A DNA stretch of 21,515 bases from a virus, in the IMG/VR virus record IMGVR_UViG_3300025664_000079, positions 1 through 21,515 of that record; one strand, given 5' to 3'. How positions within the stretch are numbered: position 1 is the stretch's first letter; the number at the start of each line of letters is the position of its first letter. Positions 1,335-17,877 of this stretch are shown in pieces. The notes under the pieces were generated by a model. It did not search any database. It worked only from the letters and a program-made list of their open reading frames with translations, and was not told the DNA's origin. A program made the translations under genes and the position numbers.

Positions 1335-1382
1335 CCGCATCCAACTTCTCGCTGCGTGCGCCGCGCCTTATCGACGAGGACC

Positions 1383-1627: not shown

Positions 1628-3553
1628 ATGGCGAGAGCTGCGCTGGGAGAAGGCCAGACCGCGCCGCTTCCCGCCGCCGACGGCGCCGATCTGGAGACGA
1701 TGAAGCGCTACTTCAGCGAAGCCCGGGACCTGACCGCGGCGGCGCGGACCAATTCGCTCACCGCGATCGATTACTACGACAGCGACCAGTACACCCGCCA
1801 GGAGCTGGAGAAGCTCGACCAGCGCTCGCAGCCGCCGATCATCGTCAACCGGCTGAAGGTGGCGATCAACGGCATCGTCGGGGTGACCGAGCGGGGCCGG
1901 AGCGATCCGAAGGCGTGGCCGCGCAATCCCGGCGAGGACGACCAGGCCGACGCGGCCACCGACGTCCTGCGGTATATCGCCGACTTCAACCGTTTCAAGC
2001 GGCTGAAACAGGACTGCTTCCTGGACATGCTCGTCCCGGGCACCATGGCCGCCCTGGTCGGGGTCGACGAGGACAGCCAGGTCACGATCAACCAGGTCCG
2101 TTGGGAGGAGTTCTTCGCCGATCCGCGCTCGCGGCGGCGCGACTTCAAGGACGCGCGGTTCATCGGCATCGCCAAGTGGATGTACGCCGACGATGTCGGC
2201 GCCCTCTACCCTGACAAGGCCGATGCGATCGCGGCGATCGTCGACAATGGCGTCGGCGGCGGCATGACCCCGGACGCCTCGTTCCAGGACCGGCCGATCA
2301 ATGCTCCCGGGACCGCCGGGGCGTGGGTGGACAGGCGCCAGCGGCGGCTGATGGTGGTGGAGATCTACTACCGCGAGGCTGCGGCTGGGACGGGCCGGGG
2401 CATGAGCTGGAAGCGGTGTGTGTTCACCGGCGCGGACATCCTCGAACAGGGGGAGAGCCCCTATCTCGACCACAAGGGCCGTCCCGACTGCCCGGTCGAG
2501 GCGATGAGCGCCTACGTCAAGCGCGACAACTCCCGCTACGGCGCGGCCTGGGACATGCTGCCGCTGCAGGACGAGATCAACAAGCGGCGCAGCAAGGCGC
2601 TGCACCTGCTCGTCACGTCCAGGATCGAGGCCAGGGACGCCTCGGCGATCAACGTCGACGCCGATGTCGCGCGCCAGGAGGCGGCCAGGCCCGACGGGGT
2701 CCTGCCCTTCGGCTGGGCGATGGCCCCCAACACCAGCGAGTTCGCCGGCCAGCTGGGGCTTCTGCAGGAGGCCAAGAGCGAACTGGAGCGGATGGGGCCC
2801 AACCCGGCCCTGGCGGGGCGCAGCGACGACGCCTCGGGGCGCCACCTTCTCGCCCGCCAGCAATCGGGGCTGATCGAGCTGGCCAACCTCTATGGCGCGC
2901 TGGAGGACTGGGAGCTGCGCATCTATCGCCAGTGCTGGGCGCGGGCGAAGCAATTCTGGAAGGCCCCGCAGTTCATCCGCGTCACCGACGACGAGGACGC
3001 GCCGAAATTCGTCGGCCTCAACCAGCCGATCCTCGGACCCCCGGTGGTCGGCGCCGATCCGGCGAGCGGCGCGCCGCGGCTGCAGCCCAGCGTGCTCGGA
3101 TATAGCAACGCCGTCGCCGAGATGGACGTCGATATCGAAGTCGACGCCCAGCCGGATGTCGGGACGATAGCCGCCGAGCAGTTCAGCGAGTTGATGGCGA
3201 TGATCGGCTCGAACCCCGCCTGGCAGAGCCAGGTCCCCTTGGAGGTGATGATCCAGCTCTCGACGATTCCGCACAAGCGCGGCGTGCTCGATGCGATCAA
3301 GCAGGCGCGCCGGCAATCCCAGGAGCAGCAGGCGCAGGCGAGCCAGGTCGCCCAGGCCCACGCCGCCGCGGCCACCGACGAAACCCGGGCGAAGGCCGCC
3401 CTGCACCTCGCCAGCGGCCAGGCCAGGCTGATCAACGCGGTCACCGAGGCCCACGCCCTGCACGCCGACCACGCCGCCGCCGGCTTCGCGGCCGGCCAGG
3501 CCCAGGCGCGCGCGGATGCGTGGGGCGATGGGGCGGCGGCGACGCAGGCGTAA
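1628..3553 (+). CDS. P22-like portal protein
   Basis: A 641-residue protein with ATG at 1628 and GGAGGG at 1618-1623. The N-terminal half reads like the P22-type portal family: an early helix with an acidic/aromatic stretch (about 40-60, AIDYYDSDQYT), then PPIIVNRLKVAINGIVG (about 73-89) and the later conserved-looking region RYGAAWDMLPLQDEINKR. Length is close to the usual 600-750. The C-terminal roughly 100 residues are Ala/Gln-rich and helical, as expected of a portal barrel or coiled-coil tail. Twelve subunits should form the DNA entry/exit ring at one capsid vertex and bind terminase, scaffold and the gp4-like adaptor. The TAA stop is the first triplet of repeat copy C, so the repeat defines the C-terminus. 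The scaffold gene follows only after about 540 bp of repeats. Confidence 0.9.
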   Translation: MARAALGEGQTAPLPAADGADLETMKRYFSEARDLTAAARTNSLTAIDYYDSDQYTRQELEKLDQRSQPPIIVNRLKVAINGIVGVTERGRSDPKAWPRNPGEDDQADAATDVLRYIADFNRFKRLKQDCFLDMLVPGTMAALVGVDEDSQVTINQVRWEEFFADPRSRRRDFKDARFIGIAKWMYADDVGALYPDKADAIAAIVDNGVGGGMTPDASFQDRPINAPGTAGAWVDRRQRRLMVVEIYYREAAAGTGRGMSWKRCVFTGADILEQGESPYLDHKGRPDCPVEAMSAYVKRDNSRYGAAWDMLPLQDEINKRRSKALHLLVTSRIEARDASAINVDADVARQEAARPDGVLPFGWAMAPNTSEFAGQLGLLQEAKSELERMGPNPALAGRSDDASGRHLLARQQSGLIELANLYGALEDWELRIYRQCWARAKQFWKAPQFIRVTDDEDAPKFVGLNQPILGPPVVGADPASGAPRLQPSVLGYSNAVAEMDVDIEVDAQPDVGTIAAEQFSELMAMIGSNPAWQSQVPLEVMIQLSTIPHKRGVLDAIKQARRQSQEQQAQASQVAQAHAAAATDETRAKAALHLASGQARLINAVTEAHALHADHAAAGFAAGQAQARADAWGDGAAATQA

Positions 3554-3627
3554 CCCCTCACCCTCCCGCCGCTCCGGCTTTCGCCGGACCGGCGGCCCCC
3601 GCCCTCTCCCCTCCGGGCGAGGGTTCT
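3551..3627 (-). repeat. intergenic palindromic repeat, copy C (core type 1)
   Basis: It begins TAACCCCTCACCCTCCC and ends CTCCGGGCGAGGGTTCT. Its reverse complement matches copy A (1258-1334) throughout, with only scattered substitutions and single-base gaps. The first TAA doubles as the portal stop codon. Copies A and C form a long inverted repeat about 2.2 kb apart that encloses copy B and the whole portal gene. Confidence 0.87.
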
Positions 3628-3642
3628 CATCGCACCGCACTT

Positions 3643-3703
3643 AACCCTCGCCCGGAGGGGAGAGGAAGGGGCCCGCGCCGGAGGCGTGGGAAGGTGAGGG
3701 GTG
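3643..3703 (+). repeat. intergenic palindromic repeat, copy D (core type 2)
   Basis: It begins AACCCTCGCCCGGAGGGG and ends AAGGTGAGGGGTG. Core GCGCCGGAGGCGTGGG is the exact reverse complement of the copy B core. It sits 16 bp after copy C, facing the opposite way, which gives a hairpin-prone pair. Confidence 0.85.
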
Positions 3704-3779
3704 AAGGTCTTTGAGGAGAAGAGGGACTGTAAGCGCAACTGCATGCAGCACTTCGACGTGTGCTCAAACCCAAGCGGCG

Positions 3780-3842
3780 TAACCCCTCACCCTCCCATTG
3801 CTGCGCAATGGGCCCCTCCCTCTCCCTCACGGAGAGGGTTTC
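3780..3842 (-). repeat. intergenic palindromic repeat, copy E (core type 3)
   Basis: It begins TAACCCCTCACCCTCCC and ends GGAGAGGGTTT. The core is the near-perfect palindrome CCCATTGCTGCGCAATGGG, followed by the CCTCTCC/GGAGAGG arm. The core is shared, in reverse orientation, with copy F. Confidence 0.83.
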
Positions 3843-3909
3843 TTGGGGCGATCCGTGGAGATGTGTGAATGCCATAGCCGCAGGGGCGAGGGGTCTTTCG
3901 CGCACCCTG

Positions 3910-3977
3910 AAACCTTCTCCCTGCAGGGAGAGGCCGCCAAGGCCCATTGCGCAGCAATGGGAAGGTGAGGGGTTACG
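3910..3977 (+). repeat. intergenic palindromic repeat, copy F (core type 3)
   Basis: It begins AAACCTTCTCCCTGCAGGG and ends GGAAGGTGAGGGGTTACG. Its core CCCATTGCGCAGCAATGGG is the reverse complement of copy E's core. The left arm carries an extra CTCCCTGCAGGGAG palindrome, so E and F match only over the core and the GTGAGGGGTTACG end. Confidence 0.8.
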
Positions 3978-4095
3978 CCCTCCACTCTTACCCGCCGCCG
4001 GGGATCGGGCGCATCGGGGGCTGGACCGCAAACCAGCGACGGGTCGCCGCCGATCGGGCGCATCGGGTCGCCGCCGCAGCGGGCGAGGGAAAGTC

Positions 4096-4746
4096 ATGAG
4101 CGAAGAACTGCCGTTTCTCGACGCCGAAGGTCCGGCGCTCGATCAAGCCCGCGCGACCGGCGAAACCCCGGCCGAGCCGACCGCCGCGCAAGCGGCCGAA
4201 CCGGCCGCCCGCGAGGAGCGCGACAACAGCCGCGTGCCGATCGGCGCGATGCTGGGCGAGCGCGACAAGCGAATGGCAGCCGAAAGGCGCCTGGCCGAAC
4301 TCGAGGCGAAGGCGCAGCCGCCGGCGCCTCCCGAGGCCGCCGAGCAATTCGGAGCCGCCCTCTACGCCCAGAACCTGCGCTCATCGCGCAAGTTCGCCGA
4401 GCGGGAGTACGGCAAGCCGCTGATCGAAACGGTGCACGACTGGGCGGCGAAGCGGTGCGACGCCGATCCGGAGTTCAACCGCCAGATGCGTCTGGCCGAC
4501 GATCCCTACGAGGCCGCGATGCAGGCCTACGACCGCGAGCAGATCCTCGCGAGCGTGAGCCCCAAGGACCTCGACGCCTTCAAGGCCTGGCAGGCCGCGC
4601 AAGCGGAGCTCCAGGCGATGACCGACCCTCAGCAACCGGCGCCGCCGCCGCCTCGATCTCTCGCCACCGCGCCGGGCAACGGCGGGGCCGGCAAGCCCCA
4701 CGTCCAGGTGGGCGAGGGCGAGGCGTTCAGCGCCGCCTTTTCGTAA
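4096..4746 (+). CDS. putative scaffolding protein
   Basis: A 216-residue, hydrophilic, strongly charged, mostly helical protein. I chose ATG 4096 because GAGGGA lies at 4085-4090; a longer in-frame reading from 3760 runs through repeats. The N-terminus is acidic and Ala/Pro-rich, then a charged helical stretch (about 45-75, including GERDKRMAAERRLAELEAKA) suggests a coiled coil. Position between portal and major capsid protein, size and composition fit a P22-like scaffold that co-assembles inside the procapsid and then exits. Scaffolds diverge quickly and no signature motif is visible, so the function rests mainly on synteny. The stop lies 16 bp before the capsid ATG, so the two are surely co-transcribed. 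Confidence 0.78.
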   Translation: MSEELPFLDAEGPALDQARATGETPAEPTAAQAAEPAAREERDNSRVPIGAMLGERDKRMAAERRLAELEAKAQPPAPPEAAEQFGAALYAQNLRSSRKFAEREYGKPLIETVHDWAAKRCDADPEFNRQMRLADDPYEAAMQAYDREQILASVSPKDLDAFKAWQAAQAELQAMTDPQQPAPPPPRSLATAPGNGGAGKPHVQVGEGEAFSAAFS

Positions 4747-4762
4747 GAAGGACTAGCCTCAC

Positions 4763-5881
4763 ATGGCCGAAACCACCCTCGCCACCGCCTCCGAACGCCA
4801 GGTCTGGGTCACGACCTATTTCCAGGAATACGTGCGCCAGAGCCGTTTTCTGCCCTACATGACCAACGCCGATCTCAACAAGGGCGGGATCATCCTCACC
4901 AAGTTCCAGAAGGAAGAGGAGGCCCAGCGGACGATCAACATCCCCTTCATCGGCCGGCTGAAGAGCGCCGGGGTGACCGGGGCGACGGTGCTCGACGGGG
5001 TGGAGGAGAATCTCACCAACTACAACTGCCCGATCACCGTCGACTGGCGGCGCAACGGCATCCGCCTGCCGAAGTCCACCACCTTCCGCACCGAGATCAA
5101 TCTGTGGAACGCCGCCAAGGACGCCCTGCAGGTGTGGGAAAGCGAGAAGATCAGGGACGACATCATCCACGCCATGACCGCCGCGGTGGTCGACGCCAAC
5201 GGCCAGGTGATCAACTGGGACGCGGCCACCGCAGCCCAGCAGAACGCATGGTGCGCGGCGAATGCCGACCGGATCCTGTTCGGCTCGCTCAACTCGAACT
5301 TCTCGCCGACCTTCGCGACCGGCGCAGGCAATGTCGCGACCACCGCCAAGGCTTCGGTCGCCAACATGAGCCTGGCCAAACGGGTGGGAAAGCTCGCCGA
5401 TCCGCACATCCGGCCGTTCCGCGTCGCCGGCGGCGATGGGCGTGAATACTACGTCGCCTTCCACGGCTCGCGCAGCTTCCGCGACCTCAAGGCGGATACC
5501 ACCATGGTCGCCGCCAACCAGTCCGCCAGGGCCAGGGAGGCGCAGGGGATGGACAAGAACCCGCTCTTCCAGGACGGCGACCTGCTCTACGACGGGATCA
5601 TCCACCGCGAGATCCCCGAGATCGACGCCTATGCGGCTACCGCCGGGTTCAACGGCATCGGCGGCGCCGGCGGCGACATCCGCCCGGTGTTCGTCTGCGG
5701 CGGCGGCGCGGTGGGGATCGCCTGGGGCCAGGAGCCGACGCCGAAGACCGATCTCATCAAGGACTATGCGTTCCGCCCCGGGGTGGCGATCGAGGAGCTG
5801 CTGGGGGTGAAGAAGATCAACTTCAACGGCGTCCAGAACGGCATCGTCTCGGTGTTCGTCGCCGCCGCCGCCGACAGCTGA
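4763..5881 (+). CDS. major capsid protein (DUF4043/N4-gp56-like)
   Basis: A 372-residue protein; the ribosome-binding site AAGAAGGA is at 4746-4752. The sequence has the pattern of the N4-gp56/DUF4043 coat family: VWVTTYFQEYVRQSRFLPYM near the N-terminus, an INIPFIGRLKSAGVTG segment near residue 60, LDGVEENLTNYN near 76-87, and a WRRNGIRLPKST segment that follows. It should have the HK97 fold and form the icosahedral shell around the portal and scaffold. The neighbours (scaffold upstream, small putative head protein downstream) agree. It does not look like the P22 gp5 coat family although the portal, gp4-like and gp10-like genes are P22-like, so the head module seems mosaic. Function is confident; exact family is from memory. 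Confidence 0.88.
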   Translation: MAETTLATASERQVWVTTYFQEYVRQSRFLPYMTNADLNKGGIILTKFQKEEEAQRTINIPFIGRLKSAGVTGATVLDGVEENLTNYNCPITVDWRRNGIRLPKSTTFRTEINLWNAAKDALQVWESEKIRDDIIHAMTAAVVDANGQVINWDAATAAQQNAWCAANADRILFGSLNSNFSPTFATGAGNVATTAKASVANMSLAKRVGKLADPHIRPFRVAGGDGREYYVAFHGSRSFRDLKADTTMVAANQSARAREAQGMDKNPLFQDGDLLYDGIIHREIPEIDAYAATAGFNGIGGAGGDIRPVFVCGGGAVGIAWGQEPTPKTDLIKDYAFRPGVAIEELLGVKKINFNGVQNGIVSVFVAAAADS

Positions 5882-5926
5882 TCCTTCGCGCTTGCCGCCT
5901 TTCCCATTCACTGACGAGGAGCGGTC

Positions 5927-6397
5927 ATGACCGCCTACAACACCACGAACTACAACAACCGCCAGGGCGCGGCGACCGGGCACGGCCCCTACCAGGGAAC
6001 CACCCACCTGCATGCGACGAGCCCGGCCCTGCCGGCGAGCCTGGCGACCGGCGATTCCGTCAACGTCGGCTATCTGCCGGCGGGCGCCATCGTCACCGGG
6101 GCGATCCTCAAGGCCGGCTCGCAGCTCGACAGCAACGGATCGCCCACCCTGACCCTGGATCTGGGGGTCGCCGGATCGACGCAGCTCTTCAAGGCGGCGG
6201 TGACCACGGTGGGCCGCGCCGCCGGCGCTTCGGCCGACGTGACCCTGGCCGGCGCCGGGGCCCTCTACAAGAACCTCACCGGCGCCCAGGTCGCGGTCAT
6301 CGCCACCGTCCATGCCGGGGCGGCCACCGGCGTCGCCGGCGCCCTGGAGGTCGATGTCGAATACTACGTCGAGGATGCCGTCGGCTCGCCGGCCTAG
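5927..6397 (+). CDS. small putative head protein (decoration/cement type), function not proven
   Basis: A 156-residue protein with ACGAGGAG just upstream of ATG 5927. The N-terminus is Asn/Thr/Tyr-rich (AYNTTNYNNRQGAATG), followed by alternating hydrophobic and Gly/Ala-rich segments that suggest a beta-sandwich, ending in DVEYYVED. No signal peptide or membrane segment is visible. It lies 45 bp after the major capsid gene, where many phages encode a head decoration or stabilizing protein. I do not recognise a named family. The role is inferred from position, size and predicted beta-rich character. Confidence 0.72.
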   Translation: MTAYNTTNYNNRQGAATGHGPYQGTTHLHATSPALPASLATGDSVNVGYLPAGAIVTGAILKAGSQLDSNGSPTLTLDLGVAGSTQLFKAAVTTVGRAAGASADVTLAGAGALYKNLTGAQVAVIATVHAGAATGVAGALEVDVEYYVEDAVGSPA

Positions 6398-6569
6398 GGG
6401 GAGCTCTGGGTGCAGGCGCCCTTTCGGATGAACGCAACGCTGGCCGGAAAAGTACAGAACCCCTCTCCCTCCAGGGAGAGGGTTTCTCAGTGTGACTTCT
6501 CGCGGGGAAGGCGAGGGAGGCGACGAATGCGGGATCGGGATCGGGATCGGGGCGGGGGAGAGAGCTGAA
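6398..6569. other. 172-bp gap with partial repeat hairpin and hexamer repeat
   Basis: It holds the partial palindromic repeat at 6459-6485 and a short tandem run of GGGATC (three units, 6531-6551) immediately before the ribosome-binding site of the next gene. An in-frame upstream extension of the adaptor gene from 6492 is possible but less likely than ATG 6570. Confidence 0.5.
6459..6485. repeat. partial palindromic repeat, copy G (hairpin, possible terminator)
   Basis: AACCCCTCTCCCT and AGGGAGAGGGTT flank a CC loop; only one extra C interrupts the pairing. It corresponds to the outer arm of the longer repeats A-F without the variable core. It is followed by TTTCTC, so it could work as a weak intrinsic terminator or attenuator between the head genes and the first adaptor gene. 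Confidence 0.65.
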
Positions 6570-7217
6570 ATGCCTACCTGCCGCGCGATCATCGGGGAGG
6601 CGCTGCGGGCGCTCAAGGCGTTGGCGCCGGGCGATGATCCGGACGCCGACGAACTGGCCGCCGGGATGGAGGCGATCGGCGAGCTGATCCTCGACATCCA
6701 CGAGGCGCGCGGGCCGATGCAGGACGTCGACGTGACCGCCGACTACACCGCCGGCGAGAACCAGCGCTGCCGCATCCAGGCGCCGTTCACGGTGAACATC
6801 ACCCTGCCCAACGCGATCCAGCTCTATCCGCGGATCGACCCCTATGACTATGGCTTCACCGCCCCGATGATCCTGCCCTCGCCGGGCTCGACCGGCAGCG
6901 CCGACGGCCTCTCCTTCCGCCAGCCTCGCGACGGGACGCGGATCGAGATCGTCGGAACCAGCCAGGCGCTCTTCTTCTACCGCGCCGACATCAACCAGTG
7001 GCTGGCCGCGACCGGTCTTTCCCTGGACGGGGAGATCCCGTTCAACGCCCGCTACGCCTCGGCCCTGGGCGCGCTCACCGCCGAACGATTGATGGAGACC
7101 CTGCCGGGGATGGACGAGCCGACGCCGGGCCTGGCCAGGCGGATCGCGCGCGGCGCCGCGGCGATGCTGCTGCGCCCCGGGACCGCCCGGGACCCGGTGG
7201 TCGCCCAATACCTCTGA
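6570..7217 (+). CDS. P22 gp4-like adaptor / head-completion protein, paralogue 1
   Basis: A 215-residue protein starting at ATG 6570, preceded by GGGGGAGAG. The N-terminal helices include GDDPDADEL (21-29), typical of gp4-like proteins that bind beneath the portal ring. It lines up with the second adaptor at 13407: GDDPDADEL matches GDDPTADEM at 22-30, FFYRADINQW (135-144) matches WWFRPDTGNW (133-142), and IPFNARYASALG matches IEFPDGLIAYLP about 13 residues later. In P22, gp4 extends the portal after packaging and starts tail assembly. Here the gene is separated from the gp10-like partner by over 6 kb of lysis, tailspike and glycan genes. Overall identity between the two is low, so the assignment rests on motif spacing, size and position. 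Confidence 0.72.
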   Translation: MPTCRAIIGEALRALKALAPGDDPDADELAAGMEAIGELILDIHEARGPMQDVDVTADYTAGENQRCRIQAPFTVNITLPNAIQLYPRIDPYDYGFTAPMILPSPGSTGSADGLSFRQPRDGTRIEIVGTSQALFFYRADINQWLAATGLSLDGEIPFNARYASALGALTAERLMETLPGMDEPTPGLARRIARGAAAMLLRPGTARDPVVAQYL

Positions 7218-7275
7218 AAGAACGGGCGCCCGCGCGGCGCCTCCATCGCCTCCCACGGTTCGGAAAGGAACCCCC

Positions 7276-7560
7276 ATGTCCACCGCCAACGACGCCGGCC
7301 CGCCGGTCCCGATCCCGACCTTTGCCCAGACCCTGATCCACTCCCTGGCCCAGAAGGGGCTCACGGTGGTCGCCACGGCGGCGGCGGCCAACGGCGTCAT
7401 CCAGACCTCCCAGGAGGCGCAGTTCGTCAGCCTGGGCGTCTCGGTCGCCCTGTTCGCCGCCTCGTGCCTGTGGACCTGGGCGCGCACCAGGATCGACACC
7501 GCGCGCAACGCCGCCCTGGCCAACGCCCCGGCCGTCCATCCGCCGGTCCGGGCGGGCTGA
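7276..7560 (+). CDS. putative holin (small membrane protein)
   Basis: A 94-residue protein with AAAGGAA at 7264-7269 and ATG at 7276. It has two hydrophobic segments: about 28-42 (GLTVVATAAAANGVI) and about 51-67 (FVSLGVSVALFAASCLW). A short basic and Ala/Pro-rich tail follows. Size and topology fit small phage holins, and the look is similar to Pam3-gp28-type putative holins as I recall them. It starts a tight cluster that includes a spanin pair, which supports a lysis role in the inner membrane. The function is inferred from topology and context only. Confidence 0.62.
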   Translation: MSTANDAGPPVPIPTFAQTLIHSLAQKGLTVVATAAAANGVIQTSQEAQFVSLGVSVALFAASCLWTWARTRIDTARNAALANAPAVHPPVRAG

Positions 7561-7572
7561 CGGCCGACCGCC

Positions 7573-7686
7573 TTGGGCCCGCTCCTCGCCGTCGTCATCG
7601 CCATCGCCGTCGTCCTCATGCTGATGGACGACGACTTCCCCTCATCCGGCCATCCCAGCGCCAAACAGCAAGGAGACTTCCCATGA
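7573..7686 (+). CDS. tiny single-pass membrane protein in lysis cassette
   Basis: This 37-residue ORF opens with TTG at 7573, twelve bases after the preceding stop and in the same frame. Its N-terminal half (LGPLLAVVIAIAVVLMLM) is one clear membrane helix, followed by DDD and a Pro/Ser tail. Its TGA overlaps the ATG of the next gene as ATGA (7683-7686), a hallmark of translational coupling. There is no strong ribosome-binding site, so it may be expressed by re-initiation after the holin-like gene. It could be a holin accessory or antiholin. It could also be chance, because the region is GC-rich. Confidence 0.42.
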   Translation: MGPLLAVVIAIAVVLMLMDDDFPSSGHPSAKQQGDFP

Positions 7687-8114
7687 ACTTCATCGCCACC
7701 ATCGAAGCCGACGGCGCCGCCGCCCTGGCCGAGGTCAAGGCCGGCCTCACCTATCTGGAAGCCGAGGGCAAGGCGGTGATCGCCTGGGTCGAGAAGGAGG
7801 TTCCCGGATCGGCCGGGGCCATCGCCGCCTTCCTGACCAGCGCCGAGGCCGACGCCGCGAGCCTGGCGCGGATCGCCGCCTCCGGACTCTCGGGGCAGAT
7901 CGCCGCGGGAGGCGACGCGATGCAGACCTTCCTGCTCAACCTCGTCTCCTCCACCGGCTTCGGGGTGAACGTGCAGAGCGGGCTCAAATCCATCGACGCC
8001 GGGGCGATCAGCCTGCTCGAGAGCATCGGCAAGGGCCTGGTCTCGACCGGCCTCGCCGCGCTGCTCGCCAAGCTCGCCCCGGCCGCGGCGCCCAGCGCCG
8101 CCACCGCGCCATGA
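7683..8114 (+). CDS. Ala-rich helical protein of unknown function in lysis cassette
   Basis: A 143-residue protein starting at ATG 7683 with AAGGAGAC at 7670-7676. It is Ala-rich and mostly helical, with no signal peptide and no long uninterrupted membrane segment; the moderately hydrophobic C-terminus (about 112-142) ends in an Ala/Pro tail. It contains VKAGLTYLEAEGKAVIAWVE near residues 19-38. I do not recognise the family. It sits between the holin-like and spanin genes and overlaps the next tiny ORF by ATGA (8111-8114). It does not look like a lysozyme, amidase or peptidase, so I do not call it an endolysin. Confidence 0.72.
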   Translation: MNFIATIEADGAAALAEVKAGLTYLEAEGKAVIAWVEKEVPGSAGAIAAFLTSAEADAASLARIAASGLSGQIAAGGDAMQTFLLNLVSSTGFGVNVQSGLKSIDAGAISLLESIGKGLVSTGLAALLAKLAPAAAPSAATAP

Positions 8115-8176
8115 GGCGGATCGCGATCACCGTGAAGTGGCTGTGGGACCGGCTCATGGGCCGGCCCCTGCCATGA
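8111..8176 (+). CDS. 21-residue micro-ORF linking two genes by ATGA overlaps
   Basis: ATG 8111 overlaps the stop of the upstream gene (ATGA), and its own TGA overlaps ATG 8173 of the i-spanin-like gene (ATGA again). The peptide, MRRIAITVKWLWDRLMGRPL plus a final Pro, is basic and aromatic. Neither junction has a good ribosome-binding site, so the micro-ORF could carry ribosomes across the 58-base gap to the spanin start. It may be a coupling leader, a real micropeptide or chance. Confidence 0.4.
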   Translation: MRRIAITVKWLWDRLMGRPLP

Positions 8177-8424
8177 TCGGCGCCCTTGCCGCCCTGGCGA
8201 GCTGGCTCCTCGGGCTGATCTTCAGGCGCCCCGGGCCCTCGCCGGAAGCCCAGGCGGCCGCGGCGGCCGCCGCCGCGGGCGCGAACCTCGCCACGGAGAT
8301 GAAAGCCAATGAAGAGATCCGATCGGCGATCCGCGCCGGAGATGCGGCGGGCGCCGCCGCCGACGCCTCTGCTGCTGCTGGCGCTGGCCGCCTGCCAGAC
8401 GACGGGTTCGAGCGCGCGGACTGA
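8173..8424 (+). CDS. i-spanin-like (Rz-like) inner membrane protein
   Basis: An 83-residue protein starting at ATG 8173 by ATGA coupling. It has an N-terminal membrane anchor (residues 1-17, MIGALAALASWLLGLIF) followed by RR and a soluble, Ala-rich helical region with EAQAAAAAAAAGANLATEM, the topology of an inner-membrane spanin. It is shorter than classical Rz (about 150). The strongest evidence is the overlapping out-of-frame lipoprotein gene starting inside it at 8309, the embedded Rz/Rz1 arrangement. It would join the outer-membrane partner across the periplasm at the last step of lysis. Confidence 0.66.
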   Translation: MIGALAALASWLLGLIFRRPGPSPEAQAAAAAAAAGANLATEMKANEEIRSAIRAGDAAGAAADASAAAGAGRLPDDGFERAD

Positions 8425-8578
8425 GATCCCCGCGCCCGCGGCGCCGCCGCCGGCCGCCACCGCCTGCGCGATCTTCGCGCCGATCCGCTGGAGCGCCCGC
8501 GACACCCTTCAGACCCAGAAACAGGCGGTGGTCCACAACGCCAGATGGAAGGCGCTGTGCGCGCCGGCGAAACCCTAG
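8309..8578 (+). CDS. o-spanin-like (Rz1-like) outer membrane lipoprotein
   Basis: An 89-residue protein in the +1 frame relative to the i-spanin-like gene; it starts inside that gene and runs 154 bases beyond its end. LLLLALAAC (21-29) is a clear lipobox with Cys29 lipidated, and the mature part has a Pro-rich stretch (EIPAPAAPPPAA), as expected for Rz1-type o-spanins. GGAG at 8295-8298 precedes ATG 8309; ATG 8342 is an alternative that leaves the lipobox intact but has poorly spaced GGAG. After lysis triggering it would bind the i-spanin and help fuse inner and outer membranes. Confidence 0.72.
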   Translation: MKRSDRRSAPEMRRAPPPTPLLLLALAACQTTGSSARTEIPAPAAPPPAATACAIFAPIRWSARDTLQTQKQAVVHNARWKALCAPAKP

Positions 8579-8588
8579 AGAGGCGATC

Positions 8589-9320
8589 ATGAAGACCCTC
8601 AAGGCCGCCCTCGCCGCCATCATCCTCATCGCGCCCGCCGCGGCGAGCGCTGGGAGCAAGAGCGGCGTCGACGGCACATTGGACGTCACCCAGGTGGGCG
8701 CCAACGGCGCCGCGCCTTCCACCGCCAACGGCGCGACCGACACCGGCACCCAGCGGGTGACGATCTCCAGCGATTCGACCGGGCAGGTGAAGTTAGCAAC
8801 TGGCGCGAATACGATCGGCACGCTGACCGCGAACCAATCAGTGAACATCTCTCAGGTCGCGGGTGCTGCAAGATCGGTCAATTCCGGCGCGGCAGACGTC
8901 GGTACGGCGCGAGCGGTGCTCTCTGATGACGGCCTCAGCGTCGTCTCGGCTCTGCCCTACCCGAATGGCGCGACGCCAGTCACCGCGACCTCCGGTTCGA
9001 TCGCCAACACCGCCAGCACGCTCAATCTTCCCGCAGTCGCCGGAAAGACGACATATATGAGCGGCCTGGAGGTCACGGGGCTCGGTGCCACCGCAGCTGG
9101 GTCTATTGCCGTCTCGATCTATTTCGGTGGAACCGCCAAAAATCTGTACTTCATCATCCAGATCCCCGCTGGCGTGACGACCGGCATTACGCCCCTCGTG
9201 GTTCAATTCAATCCGCCGCTATCCAGCGGAGCAGTCAACAGCGTAATCCAGACTACAATGCCTGCATTCGGATCGGGCAACATGGCCGCAAATCTCAACG
9301 TCCACGGGTTCCAATACTAA
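8589..9320 (+). CDS. phage structural-type protein with N-terminal signal peptide, unknown function
   Basis: A 243-residue protein with AGAGAGGCGATC before ATG 8589. Residues 1-21 (MKTLKAALAAIILIAPAAAS plus Ala) form a textbook Sec signal peptide with an ASA cleavage site. The mature part is rich in Thr, Ser, Gly and Asn with beta-strand character (GTQRVTISSDSTGQVKLATG near 54-73), as in phage particle or fibre proteins. Base composition changes within the gene: the first 170-200 bases are very GC-rich, then AT content and codons such as TTA rise from about 8790. It lies between spanins and tailspike. It could be an exported receptor-blocking protein or a virion protein with a coincidental hydrophobic start. 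Confidence 0.75.
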   Translation: MKTLKAALAAIILIAPAAASAGSKSGVDGTLDVTQVGANGAAPSTANGATDTGTQRVTISSDSTGQVKLATGANTIGTLTANQSVNISQVAGAARSVNSGAADVGTARAVLSDDGLSVVSALPYPNGATPVTATSGSIANTASTLNLPAVAGKTTYMSGLEVTGLGATAAGSIAVSIYFGGTAKNLYFIIQIPAGVTTGITPLVVQFNPPLSSGAVNSVIQTTMPAFGSGNMAANLNVHGFQY

Positions 9321-9503
9321 GTGCCGACCACCGGTCTCGAATCGAGTCTCGTCGTTAGCGACGGGGGTTCAGTCGATTCCACCTATCTCAATCTCGCCCA
9401 GGCGGCGACCCCGCTTCACGCGCTTGCAGTGAACGGCACGCAGGCGCTCGCGATTCAAATTCTTGATGCCTACTCGGGGCTAAGCGCCGCGCGGGTGGTT
9501 TGA
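9321..9503 (+). CDS. short ORF before the tailspike
   Basis: A 60-residue ORF whose GTG start directly follows the TAA of the previous gene (9318-9320), with no clear ribosome-binding site. It has no signal peptide or membrane helix; LAQAATPLHALAVNGTQALA near the middle could be a small beta/alpha structural domain. A longer tailspike start (TTG 9500) would overlap its stop by four bases (TTGA). I do not recognise it. It may be a small tail protein translated by coupling, or a remnant of a fused tailspike N-terminus. Confidence 0.45.
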   Translation: MPTTGLESSLVVSDGGSVDSTYLNLAQAATPLHALAVNGTQALAIQILDAYSGLSAARVV

Positions 9504-9550
9504 GCGCGGACGTTGTGGTCTTAATCGGCCCGCAGGCGGCGAGGTGGGTC

Positions 9551-11110
9551 ATGGACGAAACGCGGCGATTCTTCCTCAACGCCTTGGGAGCGCCAATGAC
9601 CCTTAGCGCTAGCGATATCAAGCCTCTAGACCAGCTGCCTCAGATAATCGGCCCGGCGGGGACTGACCTCATCCCCATAATGCGTACGACACCCACGCTC
9701 AGCTTTAGCAAGGCGTCCGATCTCCAAAGCCTTTTCCTCAACTCTGCAAAAGCCTACGGCGCAGTCGGCGACGGCGTGGCCGATGACACCTCTGCGATCC
9801 AAGGGGCGATCAATTCAGGTCTGCCATTTTACATCCCATCGGGCGTTTACAAGACAAGCGCCACGCTGACCGTTACTACCACGGCGAGTCATGGCCAAGT
9901 GGTGCGGGGTTCTGGACCAGTAGCTGCCAACTCTCTAGGGACGGGCAAGGCCATCATCCGCCCAACGTCCGGGGTATCGATCGCGGTTCAAATTGATGGC
10001 ACGTCATTCTCCGGCTATCTTGTCGGGTTCGGGTTGGAAAACCTTGCTATAGACATGTTGAACATGCCGGATACTACAGCAAGTGTTGCAATACAGCAGA
10101 TTCAGGCGTACGACTGCCACTACGAAAATATTCGCGTTCTCAACGACGGCGTGAACAAAAGGGGCTGGAAATTCCAAGGAGGAGCGTACACCACTGCCGC
10201 TCGCGATTGCCAGTGTGCTAATGTCGAGTTCGCTGGCGCGACCACTAGCAATCGCGCCACCACGATCACCTTCGACAATCCGGACATCAAGCGCGTCTTC
10301 GCCACCTGGGCGGACGACATCACCTTCATCGGCGGCGCCGTCCAGGCGCCATACAATCCGGCGAGTGTGATCTACCTGCCGCCGGGGACGAACCTCTATG
10401 GGTATCCGGCCAACACCACCGGCATCTATGGAGCGATCGGCTCGAGCCTGGACACGATCATCAACTTCGTCTCGATGGGGACCGACTGGGAGCAAGCCGG
10501 CGGCTATCCTTCGACCTTCAATGACGGAACGCACGGGGTTCTGCCCTTGTTGCCGATCATTCAGATGACCGCGAACGCCAGCAACTACACCTTCATCAAC
10601 CCGCAGTTCGCGGGCATGTACATGCTCGACCAGGGTTCGCGCGGAAGGGTGCTGGGCTACCAAGACGCCGGGCCGGACCTCGACAGTTTCCTTAAACCGA
10701 TAGCGGTGTTGCGCAACAACATCGCCCAAGCGATTCCGAACGCGACGTTCACCACGGTGGACGTCAGCGGCGCTCCGATCGAGCTCGATGCGAACTATTT
10801 CAAATGGGATACGGTGAACAAGCAGATCGTCATCCTGAAGACCGGGACCTATATCGTTTCCGGCCAGGTGGGCCTTACCGGCTTCACAACCGGCCAGATG
10901 CGAATTCAGATCCTCACCCCGGCCGGCAATTGGACGAGCCCTTTCGTCGGGGCCCTCGCGCCTGGCTATACCGGCGCCGGCATCCCGGGCTTCGCGACGA
11001 ACATGTTTCCTGGTGATACGATTCAGCTTCAGGTCTATCAGAACAGCGGCGGGACCATAAGCACCTCCAGCGGAATCACTGAGACGTGGCTTTCGGTTTT
11101 AAAGAGTTAA
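9551..11110 (+). CDS. tailspike: pectate-lyase-like beta-helix with C1q-like C-terminus
   Basis: A 519-residue protein from ATG 9551 (GAGGTGG at 9541-9547); a TTG at 9500 would add 17 residues. After a short particle-binding N-terminus, AKAYGAVGDGVADDTSAIQG (about 66-85) is the hallmark start of the pectate lyase superfamily 3 right-handed beta-helix seen in phage tailspikes. Repeated short strands fill about 90-380. The last roughly 125 residues (FKWDTVNKQIVILKTGTYIV and later GDTIQLQVYQNSG) look like a C1q/TNF-like jelly-roll, commonly used for trimerization. It should bind, and probably cleave, surface polysaccharide. I cannot place catalytic residues. Base composition switches from AT-richer (27 of 60 G+C at 10081-10140) to GC-rich near 10255, which suggests a swapped N-terminal part. 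Confidence 0.83.
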   Translation: MDETRRFFLNALGAPMTLSASDIKPLDQLPQIIGPAGTDLIPIMRTTPTLSFSKASDLQSLFLNSAKAYGAVGDGVADDTSAIQGAINSGLPFYIPSGVYKTSATLTVTTTASHGQVVRGSGPVAANSLGTGKAIIRPTSGVSIAVQIDGTSFSGYLVGFGLENLAIDMLNMPDTTASVAIQQIQAYDCHYENIRVLNDGVNKRGWKFQGGAYTTAARDCQCANVEFAGATTSNRATTITFDNPDIKRVFATWADDITFIGGAVQAPYNPASVIYLPPGTNLYGYPANTTGIYGAIGSSLDTIINFVSMGTDWEQAGGYPSTFNDGTHGVLPLLPIIQMTANASNYTFINPQFAGMYMLDQGSRGRVLGYQDAGPDLDSFLKPIAVLRNNIAQAIPNATFTTVDVSGAPIELDANYFKWDTVNKQIVILKTGTYIVSGQVGLTGFTTGQMRIQILTPAGNWTSPFVGALAPGYTGAGIPGFATNMFPGDTIQLQVYQNSGGTISTSSGITETWLSVLKS

Positions 11111-11155
11111 GCTCGCGCAATAGATCGAAAGTCACGAACTTACCCAAGGTTCTCA

Positions 11156-12229
11156 GTGTACGTTGCTCCGCAATTTGCCATGAAATCACCTCCCACCGAG
11201 AGATTGCTCGCGGCCGTTCTTGTGGCTGCCATCCTGACCGTCATGTACGTGCTGCTGTCGGGTTATGATCTTCCTGACTGGCAAAGCTACGAATACCTGT
11301 ACACCCGGCAGGGGGGTTGGCTGGCTGCGGCTGGGCGAGACCCCATCTTCACGGGACTGCTTCACATCGCGACTCTAATATTCGGGAGCAACGGATACGA
11401 ACCATTTCGCATCACGCTATTTGTAATCTTCACCTTAATAGTCTCATGGGTCGCTTACATATCGCCTCATCAAAAGCGTCTTGGTGTACTGTCGCCCTTG
11501 GTAGTCGCGATAGTGCTGGTGACGACGATGATGATAAAGGGCCTCATCCAAATTCGCGAAGGCCTTGCTTTCCTATTTATCCTGGTCCCAGTCGCAATGA
11601 CGTTCCGATCTACCCGTCGGAGCACAATGCGCACCGGATTAGGATCTATTATAGCTGCGTTCACGCATTTGGGTACTGGCATCTATGTAGCGTTGTGGCT
11701 CGCAGCCGTAGGAACATCGCGCCTCGGTAGAAAATCAGTCGGTAGTGCGCGGTTCGGAATGCTTATCCTATGTATTAGTATCGTCATTGGATTGGCTTTA
11801 GGCTTCGTATTTTTGCGAAACAGCTACGCGGTACGACTGTTCCTACAAGATACCGGCGTGAACATATCGGGATACGTTGTTGGAGGGACCCTGAAGTACG
11901 CTTATTGGCTTGTAGTGGGTGGTCTAATTCTGACCGTGCGCCATCAGATACGGCGATCGGTGATGGACATGTCCGAATTCCAGCTGGCGTACGCGACCTG
12001 CTTAGTATCTGGCGTTCTGCCGAGTCTATACGTGACCTGCATAGCATTGGTGTTTAGCAACTTCTATACACCTGCGTTAACGACAATGGTCATTAGGCTA
12101 TTGTTTACGGGGATCGAATTGGCGCTGGTGCTTGTGGTTGTTCGTGGTGGCGCGACGTTCATGACATTGTTGGTTGCGTTTGTGATGCTTGCAGACCGAG
12201 CAAGGATCATCGTGCCGCTGCCGGTTTAG
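11156..12229 (+). CDS. EpsG-family-like multi-pass membrane protein (putative glycan polymerase)
   Basis: A 357-residue protein with about ten hydrophobic segments. GTG 11156 follows AAGG at 11146-11149; ATG 11180 is an alternative that lacks a ribosome-binding site. The first periplasmic loop has DWQSYEYLY (41-49) and RDPIF (61-65), resembling the D-x-x-x-Y/E-P-F pattern of EpsG-type proteins that polymerize exported polysaccharide units. Base composition is the most AT-rich in the window (22 of 60 G+C at 11761-11820, against 41 of 60 at 2101-2160 in the portal), a sign of recent acquisition. With the neighbouring acyltransferase it probably changes the host surface glycan during lysogeny. 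It could also be another Wzy-like or membrane glycosylation protein. Confidence 0.74.
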   Translation: MYVAPQFAMKSPPTERLLAAVLVAAILTVMYVLLSGYDLPDWQSYEYLYTRQGGWLAAAGRDPIFTGLLHIATLIFGSNGYEPFRITLFVIFTLIVSWVAYISPHQKRLGVLSPLVVAIVLVTTMMIKGLIQIREGLAFLFILVPVAMTFRSTRRSTMRTGLGSIIAAFTHLGTGIYVALWLAAVGTSRLGRKSVGSARFGMLILCISIVIGLALGFVFLRNSYAVRLFLQDTGVNISGYVVGGTLKYAYWLVVGGLILTVRHQIRRSVMDMSEFQLAYATCLVSGVLPSLYVTCIALVFSNFYTPALTTMVIRLLFTGIELALVLVVVRGGATFMTLLVAFVMLADRARIIVPLPV

Positions 12230-12236
12230 TGGATGG

Positions 12237-12262
12237 CGTCCTGGAATCCGGGGACGTTTGTT
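12237..12262. terminator. weak hairpin between convergent genes
   Basis: CGTCC (12237-12241) can pair with GGACG (12252-12256) around a ten-base loop, followed by TTTGTT. It lies in the 52-bp gap where the polymerase-like and acyltransferase genes converge, where a terminator is expected. The stem is short, so this is a low-confidence call. Confidence 0.3.
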
Positions 12263-12281
12263 GGCATATCGTCCCGCCCGG

Positions 12282-13340
12282 CTACCTCGCAACGACCATC
12301 CGCACGCTGCGCCAAGGAACGGCGTCCTTGAGGTTCAGCGCCGGCTTCTCGACGAGCCGCCAGCTCACCCAGGCAAGGCCCAGGCCGGCGGCGAGGGTGA
12401 AGGCGAAGATCAGCCACGGCGACATCCCGGGGAAAAGCAGCACCAGGCCGTTCGTCAGCGGCCAGGCATAGAGGTAGAGGCCGTAGGAGAGATCGGCGCG
12501 TGCGTTGATCCTGGCGAGCCATCGGGACTTCAGATGCAGCGCGGCCCAGAAGATCAGATAGCCGCCGAAGAGCGCCACTCCGATCTCCGCCAGGGGGGTG
12601 AAAAGGGCTGCGATGAGTCCGGCGCCGGCGGCGAAGGCGAGGCGGGCGGAATAGACCACAAGGTCGCGAAACAGAAAGAACGTCGCGCCGGCGGCGAACA
12701 GGGCGGTGAATCGCACCGTCACCTGGAGCCAGCCGACGACCAGGGCGACGGGGGGCGGCAGGCCGGCCAAGGGGCCGACGAGGCTCGCCGCGAGCAAGGC
12801 GCCCGCCGCGGCGGCGATGAGGCGCCGGCGGCGGAAGAGGCCGATCGCGCCGACCAGCATCACCAGCAGGTAGCAGCGGAACTCGAAGCCGATCGTCCAC
12901 AGCGATCCATTGAGATGCGGCACGGGCAGAGCGGCGAAAGCTCCGGGCAGCTTCGGCCCCTGGAGCACGAGCATCCTGGCCGCCAGGGTGGCGAAGCCGC
13001 CGGCGCCTAGCCTGGAGAGATCGCCGCCGACCAGCGGGCCGACGATGAAGAGGCTCACCAGTGAGGCGACGACGAACCCCGGATAGATTCGCAGGATCCG
13101 CCGCCAGAGGTAGGCGAGGGGATCGGCGGTGCTCTGCCAGCTCTGGGTGACCAGATAGCCGCTGACGAGGAAGAAGCCGTCCACGGCCAGATCGCCGAAG
13201 GTGATCGTTCCGAAGGCCCGCGTGAGTGGTTCGCGATGGAGATCGCCGTCCACGAGCCAGGGGGCGTGGCTGAGCACCACCAGGGCGGCGAAGAAGAGGC
13301 GCAAGGCGCCGAAGTTGTTGTGGTGGTCGGCGGCTCGCAT
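12282..13340 (-). CDS. acyltransferase family 3 (OafA-like) membrane protein
   Basis: A 352-residue protein from ATG at 13340 (complement), preceded on that strand by GAGGG at suitable spacing; an ATG at 13358 would add six residues. The N-terminus LRLFFAALVVLSH (13-25) and RRILRIYP (80-87) match the family 3 acyltransferase pattern, with Arg14 and His25 in the usual conserved positions. About ten membrane helices are evident. This family transfers acetyl or similar groups to O-antigen, capsule or other envelope glycans. It lies opposite to its neighbours and faces the EpsG-like gene. Phages often carry such genes to modify the receptor of lysogens and block superinfection. The family is confident; the glycan target is unknown. 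Confidence 0.9.
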   Translation of the reverse strand: MRAADHHNNFGALRLFFAALVVLSHAPWLVDGDLHREPLTRAFGTITFGDLAVDGFFLVSGYLVTQSWQSTADPLAYLWRRILRIYPGFVVASLVSLFIVGPLVGGDLSRLGAGGFATLAARMLVLQGPKLPGAFAALPVPHLNGSLWTIGFEFRCYLLVMLVGAIGLFRRRRLIAAAAGALLAASLVGPLAGLPPPVALVVGWLQVTVRFTALFAAGATFFLFRDLVVYSARLAFAAGAGLIAALFTPLAEIGVALFGGYLIFWAALHLKSRWLARINARADLSYGLYLYAWPLTNGLVLLFPGMSPWLIFAFTLAAGLGLAWVSWRLVEKPALNLKDAVPWRSVRMVVAR

Positions 13341-13406
13341 CGGCCCTCGCGGCCTCATTGGACCGTCGCGGCGCAGGCGGCAAGCGCGTGAAGGAGCCTT
13401 GTTTCG

Positions 13407-14084
13407 ATGTCCCTCAGCCCCCGCGATGTCATCAAGCGCGCCGCCCGCCTGCATGGGGCCATCGCCTCGGGCGATGATCCGACCGCCGACGAGATGGTCG
13501 ATGCGCTGATCGCGCTCAACACGATGAAGCGGGCGATGTTCGGGACGGTGATCGGAACGCGCCTTTCGGCCCAGGACGCCACCGGCTCTACGATGCAGGC
13601 CGAGAACGGCGGCCTCTATCAGATACCAGCGGCGCTTTTCACCCTCACCGCGCCCTCAAAGCCTCGCGGCGGCTCGCGCTTCGGGGTCGCCGATCCCAAC
13701 CTCAATTTCGCGACCAACAACTGCACCATCGCCCGCAATGGCCGGCTCGTGGAGGGTCTTGCGGCCAACCTCGTCCTTTCCGTGGCCGGCACGTCGCGCA
13801 ACTGGTGGTTCCGGCCAGACACCGGCAATTGGACCCGCGAGACCGACTACGTGACGCCGGACGATACGATCGAGTTTCCCGACGGCCTCATCGCCTATTT
13901 GCCCTATCTGCTCGCCGTGGCTTTCGCCGCCGAATACGGGGCCGATCTGCGGCAGGACGTGATCGCCGGGGCGGCGGAGGGAAGGGAGGCATTCGTCAAG
14001 GCCTATGGCAGGCATGGAAGGAACCAGCTCGACCCGCCGATAGGTTCAGCCCCGCAGGCGCAACCTCAACCCCAGGCCCGCTGA
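13407..14084 (+). CDS. P22 gp4-like adaptor / head-completion protein, paralogue 2
   Basis: A 225-residue protein with AAGGAG at 13391-13396 and ATG 13407. The N-terminal helices (PRDVIKRAARLHGAIASGDD, then PTADEM) and the later WWFRPDTGNW (133-142) match the gp4-like tail accessory family and align with the first adaptor at 6570. The aromatic strand LIAYLPYLLAVAFAAEYGAD (161-180) and a helical Gln/Pro-rich end complete the protein. It is followed after one base by the gp10-like gene, the canonical gp4-gp10 order, so this is the better candidate for the functional portal extension. The 66-bp gap to the divergent acyltransferase gene may hold divergent promoters. Confidence 0.8.
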   Translation: MSLSPRDVIKRAARLHGAIASGDDPTADEMVDALIALNTMKRAMFGTVIGTRLSAQDATGSTMQAENGGLYQIPAALFTLTAPSKPRGGSRFGVADPNLNFATNNCTIARNGRLVEGLAANLVLSVAGTSRNWWFRPDTGNWTRETDYVTPDDTIEFPDGLIAYLPYLLAVAFAAEYGADLRQDVIAGAAEGREAFVKAYGRHGRNQLDPPIGSAPQAQPQPQAR

Positions 14085-14085
14085 C

Positions 14086-15645
14086 GTGGGCGACGGCATC
14101 CAGGGCCAGGGGTCCGCCCCACAGTCGCAGATCGCGCAGTTCCGCTCCGACGGGATCACCGCCGCGACGGGCCTGCGGATTCCGTTCTTCTCGGACGACT
14201 TCTCCCGCGCCTACGGCCTGCCCCCGGCGCGTCTGGTCAACATGCTGAGCGAGGCGACGCCTTTGCGCGAGGAACGGCCCTACGTGCCATTGGTGGGGCT
14301 CAGGGAGGTCCGTTACAGCCGGCCGGGCCTGGTCTCGGTCCGAAACCAGGGGACAGGCCCGATCCGGGGGATGTTCTACCAGGAAGGCAGCTTCTTCGGC
14401 GGCACGCTGATCTGGGTTTCGGGGACCAATTTCTACGCCGACACGACCCTGATCGGGACCATCCCCGGAACCGACCGGGTGCGCTTCGCCACCTCGGCGA
14501 GCCAACTGATCATCGTGGCCGGCGGGATCGCCTATCTGTGGGACGGCGCATATTTCGGCCCCCTGACGGCGCATCCCTCGTTCGTCGCGGATGGCTCGTA
14601 TCTCCCCCCCGTGATCGACGTGGCGTGCCTGGCCCAGCAGTTCGTGTTCGCCATGGCCGGCTCGATCCGGTTCTATTTCTCGGCCCCGAACAATGCGGTG
14701 AACATCAGCGCGCTCAATTTCGAGTCCAAGGAGATATTCCCCGATCCGATCGTCGGCTTGGCCGTTTGGAATGATGCGCTGGCGGTGTTCGGCTCGCAGA
14801 GCGTGCAGTTCTTCTCCCTTTCCGCCGATCCGAACGCCCCGTTCACTCCACAGCTCGGCCAGGGCTTCCAGCGCGGCTGCGCCTCACGCGACGCCATCGC
14901 CTATGCCGACAACGCCCTCTTCTGGGTGGGCGAGAACCGGGTGGTCTATCGCAGCGCCCCGACCCCTTCGCGGATCAGTTCGAACTCGATCGAGGACAAG
15001 CTGCGGCAATGCACCAATATCGCCGCCCTGACCGCCTTCGTCGTCACCTTCGAGGGCCATGAGCTCTATGTGCTCAACATCCCCGGCCAGGGGAGCTTCG
15101 CCTACGACATCAGCCGGATCGGCACGACCATCTCCACCTATGGCGACAGCTTCAGCCGGGGGGAGTGGGACGAGTGGCAAAGCTGGCAGCATCCGACCTT
15201 CCGGGGCGCGTGCGGCCTGATGGCGAAAGGGACCGCCTACATCGGCGACGATACGACCGCCGATATCTGGACGATGCAGTTTGGCGTCTATACCGACGCG
15301 GGCGGGCCAATGACGCGCCAGGCCAGCGCCTTCATCAAGATCGAGGAGGGCGCCCCCAGGTGCCTCAACCTCGTCCTGCATTGCGTGATGGGGGTGGGAA
15401 ACCCCGTCGATCCGGGCCTCAACCCGGTCGCCGAGATGCGCTACTCCGATGACCTCGGCGGCTCGTTCTCGCGCTGGCGTCAGGCCCCGCTGAACCAGGT
15501 CGGCAATTACGGCTCGCCGCGCTGCATGTGGCAAAGGCTCGGGCTTCTGAGAGCGCCGGGCCGGCTGATCGAGGTCCGCGTGACCGATCCGGTCAATGCG
15601 TGCTTTTCTCATCTCGAGCTGAACGCGAGCCGGCCGGCGCGGTGA
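14086..15645 (+). CDS. P22 gp10-like packaged DNA stabilization (tail needle hub) protein
   Basis: A 519-residue protein with GTG 14086 one base after the adaptor's TGA, so translation is probably coupled. The body is a repeated beta-rich pattern (LIIVAGGIAYLWDG, ALAVFGSQSVQFFS and DNALFWVGENRVVYR) typical of the P22 gp10 family, which caps the adaptor ring and holds packaged DNA. The length is close to P22 gp10 (about 470). It starts the tail machine after gp4 and contacts the tailspikes or needle. No needle gene (gp26) is recognisable next to it. The next genes are cargo, so the tail operon is interrupted here. Confidence 0.84.
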   Translation: MGDGIQGQGSAPQSQIAQFRSDGITAATGLRIPFFSDDFSRAYGLPPARLVNMLSEATPLREERPYVPLVGLREVRYSRPGLVSVRNQGTGPIRGMFYQEGSFFGGTLIWVSGTNFYADTTLIGTIPGTDRVRFATSASQLIIVAGGIAYLWDGAYFGPLTAHPSFVADGSYLPPVIDVACLAQQFVFAMAGSIRFYFSAPNNAVNISALNFESKEIFPDPIVGLAVWNDALAVFGSQSVQFFSLSADPNAPFTPQLGQGFQRGCASRDAIAYADNALFWVGENRVVYRSAPTPSRISSNSIEDKLRQCTNIAALTAFVVTFEGHELYVLNIPGQGSFAYDISRIGTTISTYGDSFSRGEWDEWQSWQHPTFRGACGLMAKGTAYIGDDTTADIWTMQFGVYTDAGGPMTRQASAFIKIEEGAPRCLNLVLHCVMGVGNPVDPGLNPVAEMRYSDDLGGSFSRWRQAPLNQVGNYGSPRCMWQRLGLLRAPGRLIEVRVTDPVNACFSHLELNASRPAR

Positions 15646-17706: not shown

Positions 17707-17877
17707 ATGAGCAAGTTGGAAAAGCAAGCCGCCCGCGTTACCGCCTCCCCGCGGCGGAAGGCGCAGGCCGCCACGATTTCGTTCAAGGCGCGTCCCTGCG
17801 GTGACATAGATTACGCGAAGCTCGCGGCGGAGTTGCGCGAAAGGTACCCGAAGATACTCGCGCGCCTTGCTGAGTGA
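17707..17877 (+). CDS. small antitoxin-like protein upstream of Doc toxin
   Basis: A 56-residue protein with AAGGAGG at 17695-17701 and ATG 17707. The N-terminus is basic (RVTASPRRKAQA), followed by a C-terminal helix (YAKLAAELRERYPKILARLA). It overlaps the downstream Doc-like gene by 11 bases, as in classical phd-doc pairs where the antitoxin C-terminus blocks the toxin. It lacks the longer N-terminal DNA-binding part of typical Phd (about 73 residues), so it may be truncated or an independent antitoxin type. The assignment comes mainly from the neighbour. Confidence 0.7.
   Translation: MSKLEKQAARVTASPRRKAQAATISFKARPCGDIDYAKLAAELRERYPKILARLAE

Follow-up and report, generated by a model that had tools for sequence, protein, structure and literature searches.

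A fixed slot for non-homologous glycan enzymes behind the tailspike gene of P22-like phages of Caulobacteraceae

Tailspike, EpsG-like protein and acyltransferase

We analysed a window of 21,515 bases, which is a single metagenome-derived IMG/VR virus record (IMGVR_UViG_3300025664_000079), and describe here a locus in which a tailspike gene is followed by a gene for an EpsG-like membrane protein and by one for a family-3 acyltransferase. Its sequence identifies the window as part of the genome of a P22-like podovirus that infects Caulobacteraceae. The portal, major capsid, stabilisation and ejection proteins of the P22 type are all matched in it (PF16510, PF13252, PF11134, phrog_578 and phrog_598), and the host group is well supported, since its nearest relatives by capsid comprise 71 viral contigs and 7 contigs from metagenome-assembled genomes (MAGs), and all 7 of the latter are labelled Caulobacteraceae. 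A preliminary description of this DNA had placed a seroconversion cassette at 8589-13340. The genes and their order, i.e. tailspike, EpsG-like gene and convergent acyltransferase, are confirmed, with a head-tail adaptor-like gene next, but the cassette had been started too early, as 8589-9320 is another gene. The stretch between the tailspike and the adaptor gene is referred to below as the slot, and loci of related phages are given as L numbers.

8589..9320, plus strand: open reading frame (ORF) for a signal-peptide-bearing tail-region protein, separate from the tailspike, with weak homologues in L007, L009, L014, L157 and L161
9500..11110, plus strand: tailspike, 536 aa, with an N-terminal virion-attachment-like part, a beta-helix core (about residues 81-385) and a C-terminal part
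11156..12229, plus strand: EpsG-family protein, predicted Wzy-type glycan polymerase, 357 aa, 9 transmembrane (TM) segments; 52% G+C, 45 bp behind the tailspike
12282..13361, minus strand: family-3 acyltransferase (predicted glycan O-acyltransferase), convergent with the EpsG-like gene
13407..14084, plus strand: head-tail adaptor-like gene, the conserved 3' border of the slot (phrog_637, E 3.5e-4)

The tailspike matches several PHROG tail and tailspike families, and PF12708 (pectate-lyase-like) at E 1.2e-5, just under the curated cut-off. In its AlphaFold (AF2) model the core is a right-handed beta helix, while the C-terminal third is modelled without confidence; the structural neighbours of the core in the PDB include the tailspike of phage Sf6. 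Homologues are present in at least 12 relatives. The protein probably binds, and probably cuts, a polysaccharide of the host surface. About half of the tailspike homologues carry a canonical Sec signal peptide at the N-terminus, often lipobox-like and with an A-x-A end before QN (L164:6895, L165:6428, L167:6959, L166:3108, L033:5896, L157:4490, L177:6749, L176:7789 and L202:1480), and the window tailspike has none. Such a peptide is normally absent from virion tailspikes.

The EpsG-like protein has nine hydrophobic segments and an all-helical AF2 model with a predicted local distance difference test score (pLDDT) of 85. The window protein itself gave no match in Pfam (E up to 0.1), NCBIfam, PHROG or phage records, nor did its model find a significant match in the PDB with Foldseek. 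With nothing from direct searches, it is placed in the EpsG family because its homologues match PF14897 (EpsG): the one in L198 scores 35.4 bits and passes the curated cut-off of 30.1, and the one in L022 matches at E 9e-6. A profile built from the window protein together with its relatives recovers L198, the most distant homologue, at E 1.2e-56. Six other podophages and one tape-measure prophage (L198) carry such a homologue at this position, and these proteins have in common the residues D41, Y45, Y49, K128, Q132, R134, E135 and H171. A six-row alignment of the family was too divergent for a scan of the collection, and narrower alignments returned known members only.

The acyltransferase is a clear member of PF01757 (E 9e-21; 74.6 bits against a cut-off of 31) and matches the O-acetyltransferases of phrog_3333 (E 2e-27). 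Its ORF could start at 13454, 13361 or 13340, of which 13361 was picked from the homologue in the Caulobacteraceae MAG locus L157. That homologue, the closest one at 52% identity, is equally placed but adjoins a Wzy_C polymerase, and L157 is the only locus besides the window with a close homologue. A strict EpsG and acyltransferase pair was thus rejected, and with it the earlier notion that the two membrane genes are inherited together.

The slot in related phages

Relatives were anchored on the adaptor gene, which gave 22 viral loci and 10 of 390 Caulobacteraceae genomes, two of these weak matches, and the genes read between tailspike and adaptor gene were taken as the content of the slot. 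Seven phages, the window counted, have an EpsG-type protein there. In 11 others the slot holds a non-homologous, Wzy_C-type protein of about 370-430 aa, and a twelfth gene of this type lies two genes downstream of the slot position in L176. None of the relatives read has two polymerases in the slot. The assignment to Wzy_C comes from PF04932, which matches the slot proteins of L157 and L011 at E about 2e-4, weakly and under the cut-off, and gave no match at 0.01 to that of L177. An RX(11-24)GXG motif, as reported for type-B Wzy (PMC12502699), occurs at one aligned place in the Wzy_C-type proteins checked at full length and in that of L176, 12 in all.

The remaining occupants are of other kinds. 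The slot of L174 holds a 10-TM GT-C-like protein without a family-model match, that of L172 an acyltransferase and that of L179 a methyltransferase, while in L170 and L171 the opposite strand encodes an acyltransferase, a GT-C-like protein and a methyltransferase. In L166 the slot is taken up by a small polysaccharide locus (4947-9787, minus strand) with genes for a Wzy_C polymerase, a flippase (PF01943) and a UDP-galactopyranose mutase (PF03275), and with one further gene, matched by no family, that may encode a glycosyltransferase. Its sister L167 has adaptor and hc3 genes at 94-96% of the self score, yet carries an EpsG gene where L166 has Wzy_C. The exchangeable module of tailspike and glycan-modifying membrane enzyme that the preliminary description had proposed does recur across related phages, and most of them show the association with a tailspike.

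The same description had taken the AT-rich EpsG-like gene for a recent acquisition. Its counts of 22/60 G+C (11761-11820) and 41/60 (2101-2160) are exact, and 60-mers with G+C as low as 22/60 start only at 11753-11764 in the window. In 15 of 17 genomes, however, the slot enzyme gene is poorer in G+C than hc3, a virion gene, so the low G+C is a property of slot genes and not a sign of recent arrival, and the reading as a recent acquisition was rejected.

The Wzy-family genes of the window and its relatives lie between phage structural genes, and their association with phages is near-exclusive. When the 390 Caulobacteraceae genomes were searched, the EpsG-like profile had one match, L198, and the Wzy_C profile six, five of them behind a tailspike and one beside a transposase; four of the five were seen with the adaptor gene, and the fifth, L157, with a tailspike and an acyltransferase. 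Neither outcome that the preliminary description had named as refuting it was observed: polymerases of either type were not found in host glycan loci of these genomes, and most relatives show the enzyme beside a tailspike. The L198 prophage (593-11658) combines a tape-measure protein, a tailspike, the EpsG-like gene and an integrase, and since it is of the tape-measure type, the pair of tailspike and EpsG gene occurs in two unrelated phage types. The integrase end of L198 borders on host DNA that encodes a bacterial sugar transferase and a polysaccharide flippase. When the enzymes were used as queries against IMG/VR, only phages already known were returned; pattern-based searches of this kind reach close relatives only, and distant forms may exist. 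The EpsG-like profile had no match in 385 alphaproteobacterial genomes, where no positive control matched either, so that little is shown by this result.

Lifestyle and the role of the slot enzyme

The conserved genes on both sides of the tail region define the phage type and its borders:

1628-3553, plus strand: P22-like portal (PF16510 and PF13252 matches for the portal-capsid block 1628..5881, E 2e-97 and E 1e-40)
about 4096-4746, plus strand: scaffold-like gene, between portal and capsid
4763-5881, plus strand: capsid, part of the block that identifies the phage type
6492..7217, plus strand: conserved gene of the virion region that marks the 5' side of the variable tail region, with 45-65% identical homologues in most relatives; its product had no family match in Pfam and PHROG searches
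14086..15645, plus strand: head-closure/stabilisation protein (P22 gp10-like), conserved backbone (phrog_578 E 7e-70, PF11134 E 2e-10)
20063-20752: ejection protein

Host genes lie directly upstream of the portal in several relatives: adenylosuccinate synthase in L014 and, by sequence, in L153, GTP cyclohydrolase I in L006, and other chromosomal genes in L158 and L159. The gene for the large terminase subunit adjoins the portal in L020, L022 and L155, and lies far to the right, beyond the ejection gene, in L166 (19407-20642) and L167 (18689-20029). As its position differs and host genes adjoin the portal, integration through an attachment site between terminase and portal is suggested, and from the adjoining host genes the group is probably temperate. 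In the window, a gene of the SRAP family (PF02586, E 3e-43) stands on the minus strand at 1-645, directly before the portal; given the various host genes seen at this border in relatives, it probably represents flanking host DNA and the left prophage end. Two further genes lie in the late region or near it. A Fic/DOC-family gene (17867-18280; PF02661, E 8e-13; 55% G+C) has 58% homologues behind the acyltransferase in L157 and between portal and scaffold in L027, as a mobile small gene would, and an AT-rich gene on the minus strand (16485-16991; phrog_1244, function unassigned, E 3e-32) resembles a moron-like insert.

We read the locus, with a probability of about 0.62, as a receptor module carried by a P22-like, probably temperate phage of Caulobacteraceae, in which the slot enzyme replaces the Wzy linkage of the receptor glycan. 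The tailspike would bind, and probably cut, a surface polysaccharide made of repeat units; the EpsG-family protein, as an alternative Wzy-type polymerase, would join the lipid-linked repeat units of the host by a different bond, and the acyltransferase would put acyl groups on the same glycan. A cell carrying the phage would thereby lose the linkage that the tailspike recognises and resist both re-adsorption and infection by relatives, and the slot would serve as the site at which such enzymes are exchanged when the tailspike specificity changes. In Acinetobacter baumannii, prophages encode Wzy1Ph (EpsG family) or Wzy2Ph (Wzy_C family) together with a depolymerase, the linkage change has been assigned and the capsule structures have been determined (PMC13228068, PMC9241936); Wzy-beta of Pseudomonas phage D3 likewise changes the linkage between repeats (PMC4815439). 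Replacement of the Wzy linkage seems the most likely role here too. Besides these precedents, the reading draws on what the sequences show: the identities of the genes, a fixed slot occupied by non-homologous glycan enzymes with at most one polymerase, their near-exclusive occurrence in phages, and relatives that border on host DNA. We infer that the slot enzyme is catalytically active and alters the glycan, that lysogens express it, and that the tailspike has the modified glycan for its receptor. Apart from recent acquisition and the pairing of the membrane genes, the seroconversion interpretation largely survives.

Several observations weigh against this reading. No integrase was identified in the podophage group, the substrate and catalytic residues of the tailspike are not established, and the slot is empty in about 5 relatives (L033, L163, L175 and probably L205 and L207). 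No convincing ORF for a small membrane peptide, as expected of a D3 Iap-like inhibitor of the host polymerase, was seen in the gaps around the cassette, though not every module of this type includes such an inhibitor. The EpsG-like gene is oriented like the late genes, follows the tailspike at a short distance and has no recognisable promoter of its own; a scan for promoters and terminators was uninformative. Finally, the covariation of tailspike and enzyme is fragile. With the adaptor and head-closure genes controlled, the partial Mantel rank correlation between tailspike and enzyme similarity is 0.34-0.36 (p 0.003-0.005, n=15), but it drops to 0.27 (p 0.03) once near-duplicates are removed, and in the strictest subset, limited to the ten phages whose slot holds a polymerase, it is 0.07 (p 0.25). 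Subtype I of the tailspike core is paired with EpsG at 6:1 and subtype II with Wzy_C at 6:1 (Fisher p 0.03, with relatedness not fully corrected); the subtypes were initially assigned by eye from an alignment, and the motif that served as a check is absent from L162. Covariation beyond the phage backbone is thus suggestive only, and the claim that tailspike and enzyme are co-inherited stands as a correlation that weakens as the sample is narrowed.

Because the polymerase gene has the direction of the late genes and lies close behind the tailspike, its expression may be late-lytic rather than lysogenic, and this is the least improbable of the rivals, if an unlikely one. The polymerase would be co-transcribed with the tailspike during lytic growth only, and new glycan would be made without the tailspike's target, so that progeny would not stick to debris, or superinfection of the dying cell would be blocked, with no conversion of lysogens. 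The arrangement in most relatives fits, the enzyme gene being co-directional with the late genes and either 2-90 bp behind the tailspike or overlapping its end. On general knowledge, though, glycan turnover is probably too slow to replace the coat within one lytic cycle. Moreover, both the acyltransferase of the window and the cluster in L166 lie in reverse orientation and would need promoters of their own, and it is in lysogens that phage polymerases and acetylases described so far act (PMC13228068, PMC4815439).

Less likely still, the slot may hold passengers: host glycan genes that were captured and aid the lysogen through its surface properties, against grazing or against other phages, without a link to tailspike function. 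The small polysaccharide locus of L166, which encodes a flippase and a UDP-galactopyranose mutase besides the polymerase, looks like such a capture, and the weak statistics of the covariation would be expected. What argues otherwise is the fixed position directly behind the tailspike, both in podophages and in a prophage of an unrelated type, together with the failure to find these polymerases in host loci of the 390 Caulobacteraceae genomes. That tailspike and glycan genes were mis-joined in assembly, or belong to a dead prophage, is highly improbable: although the window comes from one metagenomic record only, and some of its relatives have the look of remnants (L158 is without tail genes in the stretch read), many independent contigs and MAGs show this gene order, with intact reading frames for the slot genes and conserved phage genes on either side, and mis-assembly was rejected on this ground.

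An extension of linkage replacement can also be envisioned, although we regard it as doubtful, in which tailspike and slot form a general cassette of matched opposites: the tailspike would cut the bond made by the host Wzy, and the phage polymerase would make a different one on the same repeat unit. The lysogen might in addition export the tailspikes that bear a signal peptide and trim its own coat. If this were true, both the host glycan linkage and its phage-driven replacement would be readable from genomes.

Relation to known systems

P22-like phages are known to carry glycan-modifying genes near the tailspike gene, namely oac in Shigella phage Sf6 and gtrABC in Salmonella phage P22. The likeness to Sf6 extends to the tailspike, a structural neighbour of that of the window, but in Sf6 and P22 a side group (acetyl or glucose) is added, whereas the present lineage mostly carries polymerase-like enzymes. 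In this respect the Acinetobacter prophages are closer, as both polymerase families occur there, prophage-borne and with a tailspike depolymerase, and a protective role has been proposed for them too; the likeness of Wzy1Ph (347 aa) to the window protein (357 aa) is at the family level. There, however, the capsule linkage was determined, while here the change is predicted from the genes; the host here belongs to the Caulobacteraceae, the phage is P22-like, and throughout the lineage the enzyme has its fixed slot immediately after the tailspike. In the seroconversion unit of D3 (Iap, Wzy-beta and O-acetylase) and in epsilon15, a phage polymerase alters the bond between repeats, as proposed here (PMC4815439), and an acyl- or acetyltransferase accompanies the polymerase in D3 as in the window. 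The polymerases of D3 and epsilon15 are of the Wzy_C type, that of the window of the EpsG type, and D3 encodes an inhibitor of the host polymerase, of which none was found around the window cassette. Variovorax phage VarioGold (PMC9658991) is temperate and encodes both a pectate-lyase-like tailspike and a Wzy_C protein similar to that of D3, but a lysis module separates the two genes; it is a single isolate, for which the portion of the account drawn on here describes no exchange slot.

The kind of system is therefore known, while the interchangeable slot in podophages of Caulobacteraceae looks new; a search of the open-access literature found no such phage polymerase system for this family. 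Phage polymerases that rewrite the linkages of capsule or O-antigen were known before from a handful of bacteria, pathogens for the most part. The lineage described here infects environmental alphaproteobacteria and presents many natural replacements at one position beside a receptor-binding gene. This provides a comparative set for asking whether the bond targeted by the tailspike and the bond made by the polymerase are matched opposites, and what part phages play in the diversity of Caulobacteraceae surface glycans.

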